Origin: Mesorhizobium sp. B1-1-8
GTDB taxonomy: Bacteria > Pseudomonadota > Alphaproteobacteria > Rhizobiales > Rhizobiaceae
Direction: 5' to 3'
NCBI RefSeq assembly: GCF_006442795.2
Contig: NZ_CP083956.1
Location: forward strand, 3,945,501-4,009,500
Length of the DNA stretch: 64,000 bases
Made by a program: the position numbers and the translations under genes. Positions 36,331 to 42,944 of this stretch are shown piece after piece (position 1 is the first letter of the stretch; every line of letters starts with the position of its first letter). Below the pieces are notes generated by a model. The model was not told where the DNA came from. It made no database searches and was given only the letters and a program-made list of their open reading frames with translations.

Positions 36331-37011
36331 ATGGATGTGAGCGTGTTCGAATATAGCGACGAAAACAGTGTTTTGCGCCAAGATCTCAGCTTTGCGTACC
36401 GTTTGCTGAAGCCGGCAAATGCGAGCGGCGAATGCTTGATCCTGCTGCACGGATCGGGCGTGGACGAGATGACGATGCTGCCGCTGGCGCAGCAAATCGC
36501 GCCGCGCGCGGTGCTGGTCTCGGCGCGTGGCCGCATCCCTCAGGAGGACGGCTTCCGCTGGTTCGAGCGGATCACGCCGACCAGGTTCGGGCAGGCGAGC
36601 ATCCGCGCCGAGACGGCGGCCTTCGCCGGTTTCGCGGCCGAGGCGGCGAAGCGTCATGGGCTGGACCTCGCGGCCGCCACTTTCCTCGGCTATTCGAACG
36701 GCGCCAATCTGGTTTCCAGCCTGATGCTGCTCCACCCGGGCCTCGTGCGCAGCGCGGCGCTGCTCAGGGCAATGCCGGTGCTCGACGATACGCCCGCGAC
36801 CGATCTCGGCGGAACGCGAGTGCTGATCATCGCCGGCGCCGCCGACCAGATTTACGGGCCCTTGGCGCCGGCCCTGGTGACGCTGCTCAGCCAGCGCGGC
36901 GCCGAAATCGATGCGCGCATCGTCGCCTCCGGCCATGAGTTCGGCGATGCCGATGCCGCGATCGTGCGGCAATGGCGCCTGCCGCCCGAGGGATCGGCAA
37001 CAGTCGCATAA
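36331..37011 (+). CDS. Alpha/beta hydrolase (phospholipase/carboxylesterase-like)
   Basis: A 226-residue cytosolic esterase. Seen: oxyanion-hole region ECLILLHGSGVDEMTMLPLA, nucleophile elbow TFLGYSNGANLVSSLMLLHP (GxSxG), Asp in VLIIAGAADQIYGPL and His in ASGHEFGDADAAIV, a full catalytic triad of the YpfH/EstB type. Substrate unknown. It precedes the telA-like gene by 121 bases but lacks clear coupling. Confidence 0.9.
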   Translation: MDVSVFEYSDENSVLRQDLSFAYRLLKPANASGECLILLHGSGVDEMTMLPLAQQIAPRAVLVSARGRIPQEDGFRWFERITPTRFGQASIRAETAAFAGFAAEAAKRHGLDLAAATFLGYSNGANLVSSLMLLHPGLVRSAALLRAMPVLDDTPATDLGGTRVLIIAGAADQIYGPLAPALVTLLSQRGAEIDARIVASGHEFGDADAAIVRQWRLPPEGSATVA

Positions 37012-37132
37012 CGGTCAAAAAAGTAACGTATTTCACAGCGGTAGCCGCCGATCCCTTTCATTGTCCACAGCGGCGACATATCTCTGTCACAAACCGTCTA
37101 TCGAGATACTGTTCACTGAGGGGGAGGTCTGC
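37012..37132. other. Spacer upstream of the telA gene
   Basis: 121 bases between the esterase stop and telA. GGGGAGG at 37121-37127 is a strong ribosome binding site. The promoter of the four-gene unit probably lies here. Confidence 0.3.
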
Positions 37133-38212
37133 ATGGCCGGCGAGAACAGCATCACTTTGCTCGACGACACTTCGCAATTGCCGGTTATCGCGGCCAGTCC
37201 GGGCGAGGTCGCCAAGATCGAGGGCGGCATCGACATCCGCGATCGCGCGGCTATTTCGGTTTTCGGCGACCGCGCCCAGCAGTCCGTCAGCGACTATGCC
37301 GACAAGATCCTGTCGCAGATCCGCAACCGCGATCTCGGCGACACCGGTCAGCTTCTCACCGACATCATCATGAAGGCCAAGAACCTCGATCCCGCTTCGC
37401 TGAAGCAGGAAGGTTTTTTGAGCAACCTGTTCTCTTCGTTCAAGGCGCGGCTCGAACGTTTCAAGGAAAAATACGAGGATGTGGCCGGGCAGATCGACCG
37501 CATCGGCCTGGAGCTCGACCGCCACAAGGACACGCTGCGGCGCGATATCGCCGTGCTCGACGACCTGCATGAGCAGACCAAGGACTCGATCCTCAACCTT
37601 GACGCCTATGTCCAGGCCGGCAAGAAATTCGTCGACGACTACCGCGCCCATGAACTGCCCAAGCTGAAGGCGGCGGCCTTGGCCAAGAGCGCCGACGCCG
37701 CCGGCTCGCTGGAGGCGCAGACGTACCAGGACGCCGTGCAGGCGCTCGACCGGCTGGAAAAGCGCATCTTCTACCTGGTGCAGGCGCGCCAGCTTGGCAT
37801 CCAGCAGCTGCCGCAAATCCGCATCGTGCAGTCCGGCGACGAGACGCTGATCGAGAACCTGCAGGCGACGTCGGCGCTGACCGTGCCGGCCTGGAAGCAG
37901 AAGATGGTCATCCTGCTTGGCCTCACCAACCAGAAGTCGGCGCTCGAACTGCAAAAGACGGTGACGGACGCCACCAACGAGATGATCCGCCAGACCTCGA
38001 AGATGATGAAGGACCAGGCGATCTCCATCGAGGAGCAGGCGCAGCGCGGCATCGTCGATGTCGAGACGCTGGCGCAGGCCAATCGCGATCTCATCGACAC
38101 CGTCCAGGGCGTGCTCAAGGTGCAGGAGCAAGGCCGCCAGAAGCGAGCCGACGCCGAGAAGCAGATGGACCAGATGACCGCCGATCTCAAGAAGGCGCTC
38201 ACCCAGGGCTGA
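37133..38212 (+). CDS. telA: TelA-family toxic anion resistance protein
   Basis: A 359-residue TelA/KlaA-type protein, a long helical cytosolic protein. Seen: FSSFKARLERFKEKYEDVAG, DRIGLELDRHKDTLRRDIAV, then VLDDLHEQTKDSILNLDAYV, and the C-terminal QATSALTVPAWKQKMVILLG with TNQKSALELQKTVTDATNEM, all characteristic of TelA. ATG 37133 lies after GGGGAGG. TelA proteins are named for tellurite resistance but are more widely tied to membrane and stress responses. It heads a tight unit with a binding-protein/vWA lipoprotein, an XpaC-like protein and a second binding protein. Confidence 0.92.
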   Translation: MAGENSITLLDDTSQLPVIAASPGEVAKIEGGIDIRDRAAISVFGDRAQQSVSDYADKILSQIRNRDLGDTGQLLTDIIMKAKNLDPASLKQEGFLSNLFSSFKARLERFKEKYEDVAGQIDRIGLELDRHKDTLRRDIAVLDDLHEQTKDSILNLDAYVQAGKKFVDDYRAHELPKLKAAALAKSADAAGSLEAQTYQDAVQALDRLEKRIFYLVQARQLGIQQLPQIRIVQSGDETLIENLQATSALTVPAWKQKMVILLGLTNQKSALELQKTVTDATNEMIRQTSKMMKDQAISIEEQAQRGIVDVETLAQANRDLIDTVQGVLKVQEQGRQKRADAEKQMDQMTADLKKALTQG

Positions 38213-38222
38213 CGGGACCTAA

Positions 38223-39794
38223 ATGCCGAAGACGCTGACGTCCGTTCTCGCGCTGGCGGCCTCGCTGCTGCTGGCGGCCTGCAATTCGAGCAATGTCAAA
38301 TTCTCGATCGTTTCCGGCTCCGAGAACACGGTGCTCGAGCCGATCGTGCAGGAATTCTGCGCCAAGCAGGGCGCGACCTGCACCATGTCCTACCAGGGAT
38401 CGCTCGACATCGGGCTCGGCCTGCAGAAGCCCGGCGGACTGGACCAGGATGCGGTTTGGCCGGCCTCGAGCGTCTGGGTCGACCTGTTCGATTCCGGCCG
38501 CAAGGTGCGCAATTTGACCTCGATCGCGCAGATGCCGGTCATCCTCGGCGTGCGCAAGTCCAAGGCGGCCGATCTCGGCTGGATCGGCAGGGACGTGTTC
38601 ATGAAGGACATCCTTGCGGCGGTGAAGGACGGCAAGCTGAAATTCCTGATGACCTCGGCCACGCAGTCCAATTCCGGCGCCAGCGCCTATCTGGCCATGC
38701 TGTCCAGCGCGCTCGGCGGCAAGCAGGTGATCGAGCCGGGCGACCTCGACAATCCAACCGTGCACGACACGGTCGGCGCCCTGCTGCAAGGCGTCGAGCG
38801 GTCCTCCGGCTCGTCCGGCTGGCTGGCCGACCTCTATGTAGACTCCGCGCGCGGCGGCACGCTCTATGACGCGATGTGGAACTACGAAGCGACGCTGAAG
38901 GAGACCAACGACAAGCTGAAGCAATTGGGCGACGAGCCGCTTTATGCGATCTATCCGGCCGATGGCGTGGCGGTCGGCGATTCCCCGCTCGGCTTCATCG
39001 ACCATGGCCGCGGCCCGGAGGTCGAAAAATTCTTCACCGACCTGCTTGCCTATCTGCAAACGGACGCAGTGCGCAAACGCATCGCCGACAGCGGCCGGCG
39101 GTTGCCGCTTGGCGGGGCGGCGATCCAGGCGAGCGCCGAGCCGGACTGGAATTTCGATCCGGGCAAGCTGGTGACGTCGATACGCATGCCGGAGCCGGCG
39201 GTGATCCGCACGGCGCTGAACCTCTATCAGGAGGCCCTGCGCAAGCCGTCGCTGACGGCGCTCTGCTTCGATTTTTCGGGTTCGATGGAGAACGAGGGCG
39301 AAAGCCAGCTGCAGGCGGCCGCGCAGTTCCTGTTCACGCCGGAAAAGGCGAGCGAGGTGCTGGTGCAGTGGACGCCGTCCGACGACATCTTCGTGCTGCC
39401 TTTCGACAGCACGGTGCGCGATATTTTCGAGGCGAAAGGCGATCCGGCGGGCCAGAGCCAACTGCTCGGCGCGGTGGCGCAGCAGCATGCCGGCGGCGGC
39501 ACCGACATGTATGCCTGCGCCCAGCAGGCATTGCAGAAGATCACCGCGACCGCCGACCTGTCGAAATATCTGCCGGCCATCGTCATCATGACGGACGGCC
39601 GCACCGATGGGAGCGCCGAGCCGTTCCTTGCCCAATGGCGCCAGGCGCCGGTGCGGGTGCCTGTGTTCGGCATCACCTTCGGCGACGCCGACAAGAGCCA
39701 GCTCGACAGCCTCGCCAAGGCGACCTCGGCGCGGGTCTTCGACGGCGGTGGCGATCTCGCCGGCGCCTTCCGCGCCGCGCGCGGCTATAACTAG
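38223..39794 (+). CDS. Lipoprotein with substrate-binding and vWA domains
   Basis: A 523-residue exported lipoprotein: the signal LTSVLALAASLLLAACNSSN has the LAAC lipobox. Residues about 28-330 resemble an extracellular solute-binding protein (starts SSNVKFSIVSGSENTVLEPI, has TSATQSNSGASAYLAMLSSA). Residues about 345-523 are a vWA domain with a MIDAS box LCFDFSGSMENEGESQLQAA, GGGTDMYACAQQALQKITAT and AIVIMTDGRTDGSAEPFLAQ. Together it could bind a ligand and signal or assemble through a metal site. It follows telA by 10 bases. Confidence 0.88.
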   Translation: MPKTLTSVLALAASLLLAACNSSNVKFSIVSGSENTVLEPIVQEFCAKQGATCTMSYQGSLDIGLGLQKPGGLDQDAVWPASSVWVDLFDSGRKVRNLTSIAQMPVILGVRKSKAADLGWIGRDVFMKDILAAVKDGKLKFLMTSATQSNSGASAYLAMLSSALGGKQVIEPGDLDNPTVHDTVGALLQGVERSSGSSGWLADLYVDSARGGTLYDAMWNYEATLKETNDKLKQLGDEPLYAIYPADGVAVGDSPLGFIDHGRGPEVEKFFTDLLAYLQTDAVRKRIADSGRRLPLGGAAIQASAEPDWNFDPGKLVTSIRMPEPAVIRTALNLYQEALRKPSLTALCFDFSGSMENEGESQLQAAAQFLFTPEKASEVLVQWTPSDDIFVLPFDSTVRDIFEAKGDPAGQSQLLGAVAQQHAGGGTDMYACAQQALQKITATADLSKYLPAIVIMTDGRTDGSAEPFLAQWRQAPVRVPVFGITFGDADKSQLDSLAKATSARVFDGGGDLAGAFRAARGYN

Positions 39795-39801
39795 GCGGAC
39801 G

Positions 39802-40419
39802 ATGCGCGGTTTGTTCGGCAATGACTGGAACTGGATCGTGGCGGGCCTCGTCTCGGCCGCGCTGCTGATCGGTCTGAGCACGCTCACCCATTTCCCATTC
39901 CTGGTCTCGGCGGTGATTTCAGTGCTGGTCTTTGCCGGTCTGATTTTCGTGCTGGCACCGCGCGCGCTGTTCGAAGGGCTCGATCTCAGCACGCTGAGCG
40001 GCAGCCGCGTCGCGTTTGCCCGCGAGCTGCTGGCGCAGGCGCAGCCCGCCGCGGACCGCCTCTCGGCAGCAGCCGGCTCGATCGCCGACAAAGACATGAA
40101 GGCCAAGGTGAAGAACCTGTCGGATATCGCCGCCGACGTGATCTCCAAGGTCGAGGCCAAGCCGGAAAGCGCACCTTCGGTGCGCCGCTTCCTCACCTAT
40201 TACGTGCCGCAGGCGGCCGAAGTGGCGGAAGGCTACGCGACGCTGGCCAACCGGCGGGCGCCAAGCCAAGCGCGGCTTGGCAATGTCGGCGCGGTGATCA
40301 CCAAGCTGCAGGACGCCTTCGTGCATTATTCCGACAGCCTGGCCGACTCCGAGCTCGGCACGCTCGACGTCGACCTTCGACTCATTCAGGAGTCGCTGAA
40401 AGAGGATATCGGTCGCTGA
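39802..40419 (+). CDS. XpaC-like (5-bromo-4-chloroindolyl phosphate hydrolysis family) protein
   Basis: A 205-residue protein with two N-terminal membrane helices (VAGLVSAALLIGLSTLTHFP, VSAVISVLVFAGLIFVLAPR) and a cytosolic helical domain (PAADRLSAAAGSIADKDMKA to the end), a layout of the XpaC family. XpaC-like and TelA genes are neighbours in many genomes. ATG 39802, 7 bases after the preceding stop. It ends in TGATGG, sharing a base with the next gene's start. Confidence 0.8.
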   Translation: MRGLFGNDWNWIVAGLVSAALLIGLSTLTHFPFLVSAVISVLVFAGLIFVLAPRALFEGLDLSTLSGSRVAFARELLAQAQPAADRLSAAAGSIADKDMKAKVKNLSDIAADVISKVEAKPESAPSVRRFLTYYVPQAAEVAEGYATLANRRAPSQARLGNVGAVITKLQDAFVHYSDSLADSELGTLDVDLRLIQESLKEDIGR

Positions 40420-41525
40420 TGGCCATTTCACGCCGCGCTTTCGGACTGGGACTGCTGGCCGCTGCCGCGGCAGGCACCGGTGGCTATGTGACGTTGAAGG
40501 ACCGGCCGGAGTTTCGCGGCTATCTCGGCAACCGGGCGCATCTGTTCGGCTTCATCGGCGGCGAGAAGCAGGCCTTCCTCGCCGATCCGGATGTCGCGCA
40601 CGCGCTCGGCGGCTACGGGCTGGAGCTCGACGCGCGCGTCGCCGGCTCGGTCGAGATGGTGCGCGAACCGGCCCTGCTGACGCAAAAGCCGCAATTCCTG
40701 TGGCCGTCCTCGTCGATCATGGTCGACCTGGCCCGAAAAAGCGGCGTCGCGATCCGCAACGACCAGGTCGTGCTCAATTCGCCGATCGTCGTCTACACCT
40801 GGGGGCCGGTGGTCGAGGGCCTGAAGAAGAGCGGACTGGTGACGGTCGCCGCCAAGGGCGGCTACAACCAGCTCGACCTCAAGGCGCTGCTCGACGCCAT
40901 CCTTGCCGGCAAGAACTGGTCGGATCTCGGCATCGCCGAACTCTATGGCCGCGCCCGCATCGTCTCCACTGACCCCAACCGCTCCAATTCGGGCTTCATG
41001 TTCGCCGGCTTGGCGCTCAGCCTGCTGAGCGGCGACGTGGCAACCCAGGAACTGCTTGCCCAGCATGGCGAAAAGGCAAAGGCGCTCTTCCGCAGCATGG
41101 GGCTGAAATCGTCCTCGTCCGGCAAACTCTTCGACCAGTATATCGCCGGCGGGCTCGGCGCCGAACCGATGGCGATCGGCTACGAGAACCAGCTGGTGGA
41201 ATGGGCGCTCGCCGACCCGGCGCGCTGGCAGCGGGTGCAGGCCGGCGCCGGCGCCAAGCCCGAAATCCTCTATCCGCGCCCGACCGTCTATTCGGCGCAT
41301 CCGCTGATCGTTGTCGATCCGGCCGTCGACCCGCTGCTGGAAGCACTGACCAGCCCGAAGCTGCAGGAACTCGCCTGGTCGAAGCACGGCTTCCGCGGGC
41401 CGCTCGGCACGGTGGCCGCCGGCTCGGACACGATCGCCGGCGTGCGGCCGGCCGAGATCGAGGCGGTGCTGCCGATGCCGTCGGCTGACGTGATGCTTTC
41501 GCTGCTGTCGCAGCTGGAAGTCTAG
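40419..41525 (+). CDS. Substrate-binding-like exported protein
   Basis: A 368-residue protein whose N-terminus MAISRRAFGLGLLAAAAAGT has twin arginines (SRRAFGL) and a hydrophobic stretch, either a Tat signal or an anchor. The rest resembles a type 2 periplasmic binding protein: LGNRAHLFGFIGGEKQAFLA, LARKSGVAIRNDQVVLNSPI, RIVSTDPNRSNSGFMFAGLA and YENQLVEWALADPARWQRVQ. The last gene of the telA unit; its start shares a base with the previous stop. Ligand unknown; it is probably a partner to the vWA lipoprotein. Confidence 0.8.
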   Translation: MAISRRAFGLGLLAAAAAGTGGYVTLKDRPEFRGYLGNRAHLFGFIGGEKQAFLADPDVAHALGGYGLELDARVAGSVEMVREPALLTQKPQFLWPSSSIMVDLARKSGVAIRNDQVVLNSPIVVYTWGPVVEGLKKSGLVTVAAKGGYNQLDLKALLDAILAGKNWSDLGIAELYGRARIVSTDPNRSNSGFMFAGLALSLLSGDVATQELLAQHGEKAKALFRSMGLKSSSSGKLFDQYIAGGLGAEPMAIGYENQLVEWALADPARWQRVQAGAGAKPEILYPRPTVYSAHPLIVVDPAVDPLLEALTSPKLQELAWSKHGFRGPLGTVAAGSDTIAGVRPAEIEAVLPMPSADVMLSLLSQLEV

Positions 41526-41555
41526 ATAGCCGACCTGAAGCTCCGGCCTCTACCT

Positions 41556-42944
41556 CTACCCCTGCCCCATCCTGTTCCAGGCGTCCAACCCGGCGATCTT
41601 GTAGGCTTCGGCCAGCGTCGGATAGTTGAAGGTGTTGTTGACGAAGAAGTCGACGGTGCCGCCGAGATTGATCACGGCCTGGCCGATATGGATGAGCTCG
41701 GTGGCGCCCTCGCCGACGATATGGGCGCCGAGCAGGCGGCGCGTCTCGATCGAGAACAACAGCTTCAGGAAGCCGGTGTTGACGCCCATGATGTGACCGC
41801 GCGAGGTCTCGCGGAAGCGCGCGACGCCGACCTCGTAGGCGACGCCGCTTTCGCGCACCTGCTCCTCCGACTGGCCGACGGTGGAAATTTCCGGCACGGC
41901 ATAGATGCCATAGGGAAAGGTCTCAGGCGGCGGCGGCAGCGTGACGCCAAAGGCGTGGCAGGCGGCCACCCTGCCCTGCTCCATCGAGGTTGAGGCAAGG
42001 CTCGGAAAGCCGATGACGTCGCCGGCGGCATAGATGTGGGGCACGCTGGTCTGGAATGTGTGCGGGTCGACCTTGATGCGCCCTCTCGGGTCGGCCTCGA
42101 TACCGACCACGTCAAGGCCAAGGCTGCCGACATTGCCGGTGCGGCCGGCGGCATAAAGCACGATCTCGGATCGGATGGTGCGGCCGTCGGCGAGCGTCAC
42201 CTCGGCATAGTCCGGCTTGGAGGCGATTTCCTTGACGGTGCTGCCCAGGCGGATCGTCATGCCGCGGTCGCGCATCTGATGGATGAAATCGTCGACGATC
42301 TCGCGGTCGACGAAATCGAGGATGGTATTGCGCGGTTCGACCAGCGTCACCGGCACGTCGAGCGCCGAAAAGATGGTGGCATATTCGACGCCGATGACGC
42401 CGGCGCCGATCACCGTCAGCGTGCGCGGCAGATGGTGGAGCTCCAGCATCTCGTCGCTGTCGAAGACACGCTTCCGGTCGAAGGGCACGTCGGCCGGACG
42501 ATGCGGCCTGGTGCCGACGGCGATCAGCGCGTTGGCGAAACCGATCTCGCTGTAGTCGCCATTGTCGGCGGTCAGGCTGACCCTGTTGGGGCCGATGAAC
42601 TTCACGGCCGCGCGTGCGCTCTTGACGGTGTTGCGCATGAACTGGTGCTGCAGCACCTCGACCTCGTGATCGAGCGTCTTGTGCAGGCGCTCGACAAGAT
42701 CGCCGACCGAAATGTCCTGCTTGACCCGGTAACCGCGCCCATAGAAGCCGCGCTCGCGCCAGCCGGAGAGATTGAGCACCGTTTCGCGCAGCGTTTTCGA
42801 CGGGATGGTGCCGGTGTGGACCGAGACGCCGCCAAGGCGCCGGCCCCTGTCGACCACCAGCACGGATTTGCCAAGCTTGGCCGATTGCACCGCGGCACGG
42901 CGCCCGGAAGGCCCGCTGCCGATGACCAGCATATCGTAGTCCAT
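41556..42944 (-). CDS. sthA: Soluble pyridine nucleotide transhydrogenase
   Basis: A 462-residue flavoprotein moving hydride between NADPH and NAD. Seen: FAD site DMLVIGSGPSGRRAAVQSAK, GGVSVHTGTIPSKTLRETVL, NAD(P) site TVIGAGVIGVEYATIF, and the second FAD motif PHIYAAGDVIGFPSLASTSM. In the usual redox-active CxxxxC position the sequence is SVHTGT, lacking both cysteines, as expected for this class rather than for a dihydrolipoyl dehydrogenase. Convergent with the telA unit. Confidence 0.95.
   Translation of the reverse strand: MDYDMLVIGSGPSGRRAAVQSAKLGKSVLVVDRGRRLGGVSVHTGTIPSKTLRETVLNLSGWRERGFYGRGYRVKQDISVGDLVERLHKTLDHEVEVLQHQFMRNTVKSARAAVKFIGPNRVSLTADNGDYSEIGFANALIAVGTRPHRPADVPFDRKRVFDSDEMLELHHLPRTLTVIGAGVIGVEYATIFSALDVPVTLVEPRNTILDFVDREIVDDFIHQMRDRGMTIRLGSTVKEIASKPDYAEVTLADGRTIRSEIVLYAAGRTGNVGSLGLDVVGIEADPRGRIKVDPHTFQTSVPHIYAAGDVIGFPSLASTSMEQGRVAACHAFGVTLPPPPETFPYGIYAVPEISTVGQSEEQVRESGVAYEVGVARFRETSRGHIMGVNTGFLKLLFSIETRRLLGAHIVGEGATELIHIGQAVINLGGTVDFFVNNTFNYPTLAEAYKIAGLDAWNRMGQG

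Follow-up and report, generated by a model that had tools for sequence, protein, structure and literature searches.

Why should TelA, which carries the name toxic-anion resistance protein and for which we know of no established mechanism, be encoded side by side with two predicted exported binding proteins? This question is raised by a four-gene cassette of Mesorhizobium sp. B1-1-8 (NZ_CP083956.1), for which all coordinates given here count within the window, the whole stretch of 64,000 nucleotides that was analysed. Open reading frame (ORF) calls place the cassette on the plus strand at 37133-41525 and give, in order, TelA (37133-38212, 359 amino acids), a lipoprotein that joins a solute-binding protein (SBP) domain to a vWA domain and is here called SBP-vWA (38223-39794, 523 amino acids), an XpaC-like protein (39802-40419, 205 amino acids) and a second binding protein, SBP2 (40419-41525, 368 amino acids). 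The ORF coordinates confirm the gaps of 10, 7 and -1 bases that a first-pass annotation of this DNA had given, and its naming of TelA, of a lipoprotein with SBP and vWA domains and of an XpaC-like protein was borne out by Pfam.

The four genes form one unit, a conclusion that we regard as virtually certain. A search with SBP-vWA yielded at least 68 loci, of which 20 were left out because their flanks were short or their family score was below 400, and 48 were counted; the profiles used started from the window proteins and were then refined by iteration on the retrieved loci themselves. SBP2 was found in 44 of the 48 loci, an XpaC-like gene in 41, TelA in 36, and all three on the same strand in 36, the XpaC-like count being partly by construction because one of its profiles (A3) was positional, built from the gene at that position in 14 loci. 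The complete cassettes span several proteobacterial classes, Firmicutes, Actinomycetota and others, and come in three gene orders: SBP2-TelA-SBPvWA-XpaC (24 loci), TelA-SBPvWA-XpaC-SBP2 (8 loci) and SBPvWA-XpaC-SBP2-TelA (4 loci). Eight further loci were without TelA, including one (L069) in which it lies nearby on the opposite strand, and four low-scoring loci (L074, L081, L084 and L088) had SBP-vWA alone. Of the 153 junctions in 51 complete cassettes, 139 were of 30 bases or fewer and the median was -4; as the start of each gene, the first one lying at most 60 bases ahead of the preceding stop was used, a rule that biases the count towards overlaps. Trees of the four genes, built for 48 cassettes, agreed with one another (r 0.90-0.95), and none of 1000 label shuffles, which leave shared ancestry in place, reached as high a value; when split at the midpoint, each of the four trees gave one group of 17 and one of 31, with identical membership throughout. 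The linkage across relatives is real and old; non-conserved linkage, which the first-pass annotation had named as a finding that would speak against it, was not what the survey showed, and its operon-like unit is supported. On annotated plasmids the block was seen in Sphaerotilus and Variovorax, and a version that lacks TelA in Deinococcus. One Variovorax plasmid cassette (L020, 12493-17443) has Wadjet genes on one side and a flotillin gene on the other, each about 2 kb away.

The TelA of the window matched PF05816 at an E value of 3.4e-94 (316.1 bits against a cut-off of 30) over positions 3-331 of 332, essentially the full length of the family, and was the only such match in its own genome. 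It is presumably cytosolic and helical, and no signal or transmembrane segment was seen by eye. Its XpaC-like neighbour matched PF10112 at 4e-21 (76.3 bits against a cut-off of 29.8), a family that Pfam names Halogen_Hydrol and that we take to be the XpaC family; two N-terminal hydrophobic stretches, predicted to be transmembrane, precede a helical domain that is probably cytosolic. The arrangement first proposed, with XpaC in the membrane and TelA in the cytosol, is supported by these sequences. In NCBIfam the XpaC-like protein had a hit to ZorA1 at 0.063, far under the cut-off. Counterparts captured by the A3 profile come from actinobacteria, betaproteobacteria and similar groups; none of the four scanned matched PF10112 above its cut-off, and the A3 profile matched the XpaC profile (A4) with a probability of 89 and an E value of 2.5e-6 across a 102-column stretch of the helical part. 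A TelA with a strong PF05816 match is also encoded in another genome of the order (L128, 5053-6192); no SBP, vWA or XpaC partner of it was found in the 12 kb scanned, and the next genes have no Pfam match.

The SBP-vWA protein begins with a lipobox (LAAC), followed by a predicted type II solute-binding domain at about residues 26-310 and a vWA domain at about 340-520, with Pfam matches to SBP_bac_11 (E value 8.9e-9) and VWA (1.1e-8). The residues of the metal ion-dependent adhesion site (MIDAS), D350, S352, S354, T427 and D458 (DxSxS, T, D), are invariant in 45 of 45 aligned sequences, a chosen set made up of the window protein and 44 of the at least 68 loci, and metal binding itself is predicted. 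An AlphaFold model (predicted local distance difference test, pLDDT, 91.9) was compared with the PDB and retrieved type II binding proteins at E values of about 1e-10 to 1e-8, among them polyamine (SpuE, PotF), ferric (FbpA), sulfate and sugar-phosphate binders; the highest target TM-score among SBPs in the best 50 rows was 0.71, for 6lkg, and vWA structures were also among those 50. In a weak HMMER alignment that covers the N-terminal part only (E value 0.024), S33 and S60 fall on residues 12 and 39 of ModA (1amf), which are presumably molybdate ligands. A simple pattern found a lipobox before the SBP domain in 59 of 76 SBP-vWA ORFs; among those that it missed are ORFs truncated at contig ends, diverged members, a few with near-lipoboxes and Firmicutes proteins that have a hydrophobic anchor instead. 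The nearest named relative among the matches listed is a Mesorhizobium (L022), with 91% identity in the SBP-vWA protein.

Pfam assigns SBP2 of the window to no family, and among 42 relatives just 5 reach SBP_bac_11 at an E value of 0.01. When profiles were compared with hhalign, the SBP half of the vWA protein and SBP2 could be aligned across 290 columns (E value 4.9e-19, probability 99), and on this comparison the two are paralogues. They share several motifs: a start of the form G-[S/G]-E, with E in 41 of 44 SBP-vWA and 38 of 42 SBP2 sequences; G-[S/T]; SNS, whose N is found in 45 of 45 SBP-vWA and 38 of 42 SBP2 sequences; and YE, present in all 45 and all 42. The SBP2 alignment is likewise a chosen set, the window protein plus 41 of the at least 68 loci. 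Together with a confident AlphaFold model (pLDDT 91.2), this homology points to a two-lobed type II SBP fold for SBP2. A sequence match of SBP2 in the PDB at 6.6e-12 consisted of many repeat pieces, none significant alone, and was set aside; other PDB sequence searches gave nothing usable.

The start of SBP2, SRRAFGL, resembles a twin-arginine translocation (Tat) signal, and export is predicted. A lipobox was found in none of 64 SBP2 ORFs, and an RR pair precedes the domain in 38 of them. The first-pass description of a twin-Arg protein fits the starts seen in Alphaproteobacteria, in which 16 of 17 rows have a Tat-like S/T/N-R-R-x start (two rows, L011 and L029, being the same region), but suits other groups less well, in which 22 of 47 rows have less typical RR pairs and the start is mostly one or two basic residues followed by a hydrophobic stretch, a plain anchor. 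Its paired binding domains are both predicted to be exported, and by the hhalign comparison they are paralogues rather than two unrelated receptors. The topology is probably one of two binding domains outside, an XpaC hairpin across the membrane and TelA inside.

What would such a unit do? As in the first-pass annotation, we infer that the binding domains sense and signal via XpaC to TelA. Our leading but tentative reading is that the cassette encodes an extracytoplasmic sensor without a transporter, coupled through XpaC to cytosolic TelA in an envelope sensor or protection complex that spans the membrane and is encoded by the four genes as one operon. SBP-vWA, lipid-anchored, and SBP2, anchored or Tat-exported, would be located on the outer side of the cytoplasmic membrane, where their related pockets would recognise small ligands of one class. 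Ligand would close the SBP domains and alter the metal-dependent docking of the vWA domain, at its MIDAS, to a partner that would most likely be SBP2 or XpaC; the two-helix hairpin of XpaC would relay the change to its own cytosolic helical domain and then to TelA, which would act beneath the membrane and protect the envelope.

We favour this reading because the published passages on TelA and XpaC and the transporter-less pair of binding proteins point to it together. Also in its favour are the conserved linkage with tight junctions and agreeing trees, the all-or-mostly-none distribution in the genus, the paralogy and shared motifs of the SBPs, the invariant MIDAS residues and the fold match to 6lkg. 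A Lactococcus study of membrane-protein overproduction and the envelope-stress regulator CesSR (PMC3139573) includes a transcriptome table with values of 10.3 for an XpaC-like gene and 3.44 for telA1, and PMC12791056, citing Collins 2010, describes a Listeria TelA mutant as 4-fold more susceptible to nisin and 2-fold more susceptible to tellurite. By term search, a Streptomyces sigmaE paper (PMC6767563) had one SBP passage, on an ATP-binding cassette (ABC) operon, and no TelA-type or vWA terms, and a survey of PSP (phage shock protein) systems (PMC11237479) had no TelA, XpaC, vWA or toxic-anion terms.

Several points weigh against the sensor reading. Same-strand TelA is missing in 8 of the 44 SBP2-bearing loci. 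The topology of XpaC is a prediction from sequence, and outside Alphaproteobacteria and Firmicutes the XpaC-like link is made at the level of profiles, over those 102 columns. The PDB matches of the SBP-vWA model are distant, with identities of 10-16% in the SBP rows and TM-scores by query length of about 0.4. Near-invariant acids flank the presumed pocket hydroxyls in the SBP domain and would suit a ligand of some other class than that of ModA. Finally, the literature on XpaC and TelA, as far as the available passages go, stems from pairs for which no SBP partner is mentioned. A bolder version, in which the cassette is an undescribed, phylum-spanning transmembrane device whose two paralogous SBPs and vWA domain control TelA from outside by way of a two-helix XpaC relay, free of kinase and transporter, is possible but doubtful.

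Alternatives to the sensor reading can be weighed against the surroundings of the cassette. From 43 SBP2-bearing loci 160 flanking ORFs of 150-900 amino acids were called mechanically, and 80 were picked, roughly one for each side though not in every case the closest; these fell into 59 families, 34 single-member families not being itemised. No family occurred in more than 3 of the 80, no transporter, permease or ATPase family in two or more, and no kinase or defence family recurred. Eight window proteins were also scanned, the cassette and four neighbours, and among them were no permease, ATPase, histidine kinase or response regulator and no Ter family besides TelA; TerC and TerD elsewhere in the genome were not searched for.

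The distribution of the cassette bears on a second reading. The SBP-vWA gene is sparse, being present in 4 of 142 genomes drawn from the class and 5 of 150 from the order, the source genome included. Among 146 genomes of the genus, SBP-vWA and XpaC were each found in 32 and SBP2 and TelA each in 34; by coordinates the same 32 carry all four side by side, with TelA split at a contig end in G407 and genes broken as assembled in G312 and G338. At the thresholds used 110 genomes had none of the four, and four were partial, with a piece of SBP2 only (G308 and G421), a piece of TelA only (G404) or a TelA elsewhere (G401). The site between an esterase-like and a transhydrogenase-like gene was examined in 10 genomes without an intact cassette (14 had been chosen, 11 had the flank gene, and one of these, G338, had the cassette). 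The two flank genes adjoin at about 40-400 bases in five of the ten sites and are separated by 2.7 kb of other DNA in one (G291), and the remaining four (G308, G401, G404 and G421) hold remnants of the cassette, which shows that loss occurred there. In decayed remnants of four congeneric genomes at this chromosomal site (L118, L119, L120 and L125), unidentified DNA separates the esterase-like gene from the remnant.

Such patchiness within the genus, with decay at one site, might be expected of a module that detects attack on the membrane and serves in defence against phages or bacteriocins or in the manner of Ter systems. Phages, too, encode members of the TelA family (phrog_5890, E value 4.6e-64), one Variovorax cassette lies near Wadjet genes, and PMC7824862 names TelA and a vWA protein among the Ter components beneath the membrane that exclude phage or xenobiotics. 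However, none of the four cassette proteins matched PADLOC at an E value of 0.1, the Wadjet genes near the Variovorax cassette are a single case against a flanking set in which no defence family recurs, the cassette has no obvious effector, and TelA was the only Ter family among the window proteins scanned. We consider a defence role unlikely.

A third reading, a scaffold for envelope construction, was suggested by a diverged actinobacterial operon that encodes SBP2-like, SBP-vWA-like and transmembrane-hairpin proteins together with an ATPase with AAA_lid_6 (L080, L081 and L086) and the lipid II flippase MurJ (L080, L081 and L084). The SBP folds and vWA domain would then act outside the cytoplasm as adaptors that hold together machinery of the membrane or for peptidoglycan precursors, TelA and XpaC would form the inner part, and the EipB-like proteins, found in 3 of the 80 flanking ORFs, could be read in the same way. 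But this operon is tied weakly to the cassette: its SBP2-like protein had hhalign probabilities of 50 and 66, and its hairpin protein reached 69.5 against A4 and 4.5 against A3. The cassette itself lacks MurJ, and binding is suggested because the pocket motifs are kept in both paralogues. A scaffold therefore seems to us rather improbable. The actinobacterial loci that are vWA-only or MurJ-linked were set apart from the family for their weak SBP2 and XpaC resemblance. An AAA ATPase with AAA_lid_6 also lies directly after TelA in three Firmicutes loci (L035, L036 and L037), and the ATPase of the actinobacterial operon shares the core only (39% identity over 246 residues). In L036 a 610-amino acid protein without a Pfam match lies between SBP2 and TelA.

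Nutrient or metal scavenging, with the two SBPs feeding an ABC importer encoded elsewhere and TelA and XpaC as accessories, would account for a fold that is that of ABC-linked type II SBPs, and in one locus (L030) the upstream gene weakly matches the ATP-binding-cassette family PF16949 (E value 3.5e-6). Against this, neither the cassette nor the neighbours scanned include a permease or ATPase, an importer elsewhere in the genome not having been searched for, no transporter family recurs in the flanking set, and a vWA fusion and linkage to TelA are not features of importers; we hold this explanation to be highly improbable. That the genes are chance neighbours in Rhizobiales, for which the rarity of SBP-vWA in the order might speak, is rejected by the co-occurrence of the same four genes across phyla, the agreement of their trees and the tight junctions, and has a negligible probability.

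The sole sizeable gap at the cassette lies before telA. A conserved block on the plus strand at 37077-37129, identical at 42 of 53 positions in six Mesorhizobium cassettes, is likely a promoter/leader or operator; its 3' end includes the ribosome-binding region, and its core has no second occurrence in the genome when up to 3 mismatches are allowed. In the window the block carries arms TATCTC/GAGATA, of which the left varies among relatives. A scan of 36900-41800 found no sigma-70-like promoter. Terminator-like sites numbered 7 against 3.3 expected, with 6 of the 7 on the minus strand and none on the plus strand at the end of the operon, and the search for tandem repeats found none.

If the bolder, phylum-spanning version of the sensor reading is true, a ligand-sensing input would be the first of its kind for TelA. 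The cassette could also represent a kinase-free route by which an outside signal crosses the membrane. The pairing of TelA with two recognisable binding proteins leads to concrete questions about a ligand and a complex, and since strains of one genus differ at a single site, natural strains with and without the cassette exist for comparison.

The XpaC-TelA pair is already known, and the four-gene form with duplicated SBPs and a vWA domain seems to be undescribed: no description was found in the literature searched, in the parts available, and an earlier one, if it exists, is likeliest in the 2012 Ter paper of Anantharaman, Iyer and Aravind. The Firmicutes XpaC-TelA (YaaN) pairs (lmo1966-lmo1967 and llmg_1115-1116) have the same two families adjacent, with stress-related expression and antimicrobial susceptibility reported, but the available passages mention no SBP or vWA partner there, whereas here the pair is embedded with two predicted exported binding proteins. 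Ter systems (TerC, TerD, the vWA protein TerF and TelA) likewise combine TelA with a vWA protein in a proposed sub-membrane protection; here, in contrast, the vWA domain is fused to a predicted exported SBP lipoprotein, and no other Ter family is in the cassette. Binding proteins of the ModA/FbpA type share the predicted type II fold and, by the weak alignment, the two serine positions of ModA, but here acids flank the hydroxyls. SBP-triggered sensors also tie a type II SBP to signalling, an example being the protein of 6lkg, titled a two-component system protein mediating signal transduction and presumably the staphylococcal HptA; in the cassette, a vWA domain, XpaC and TelA stand in place of a histidine kinase and response regulator.

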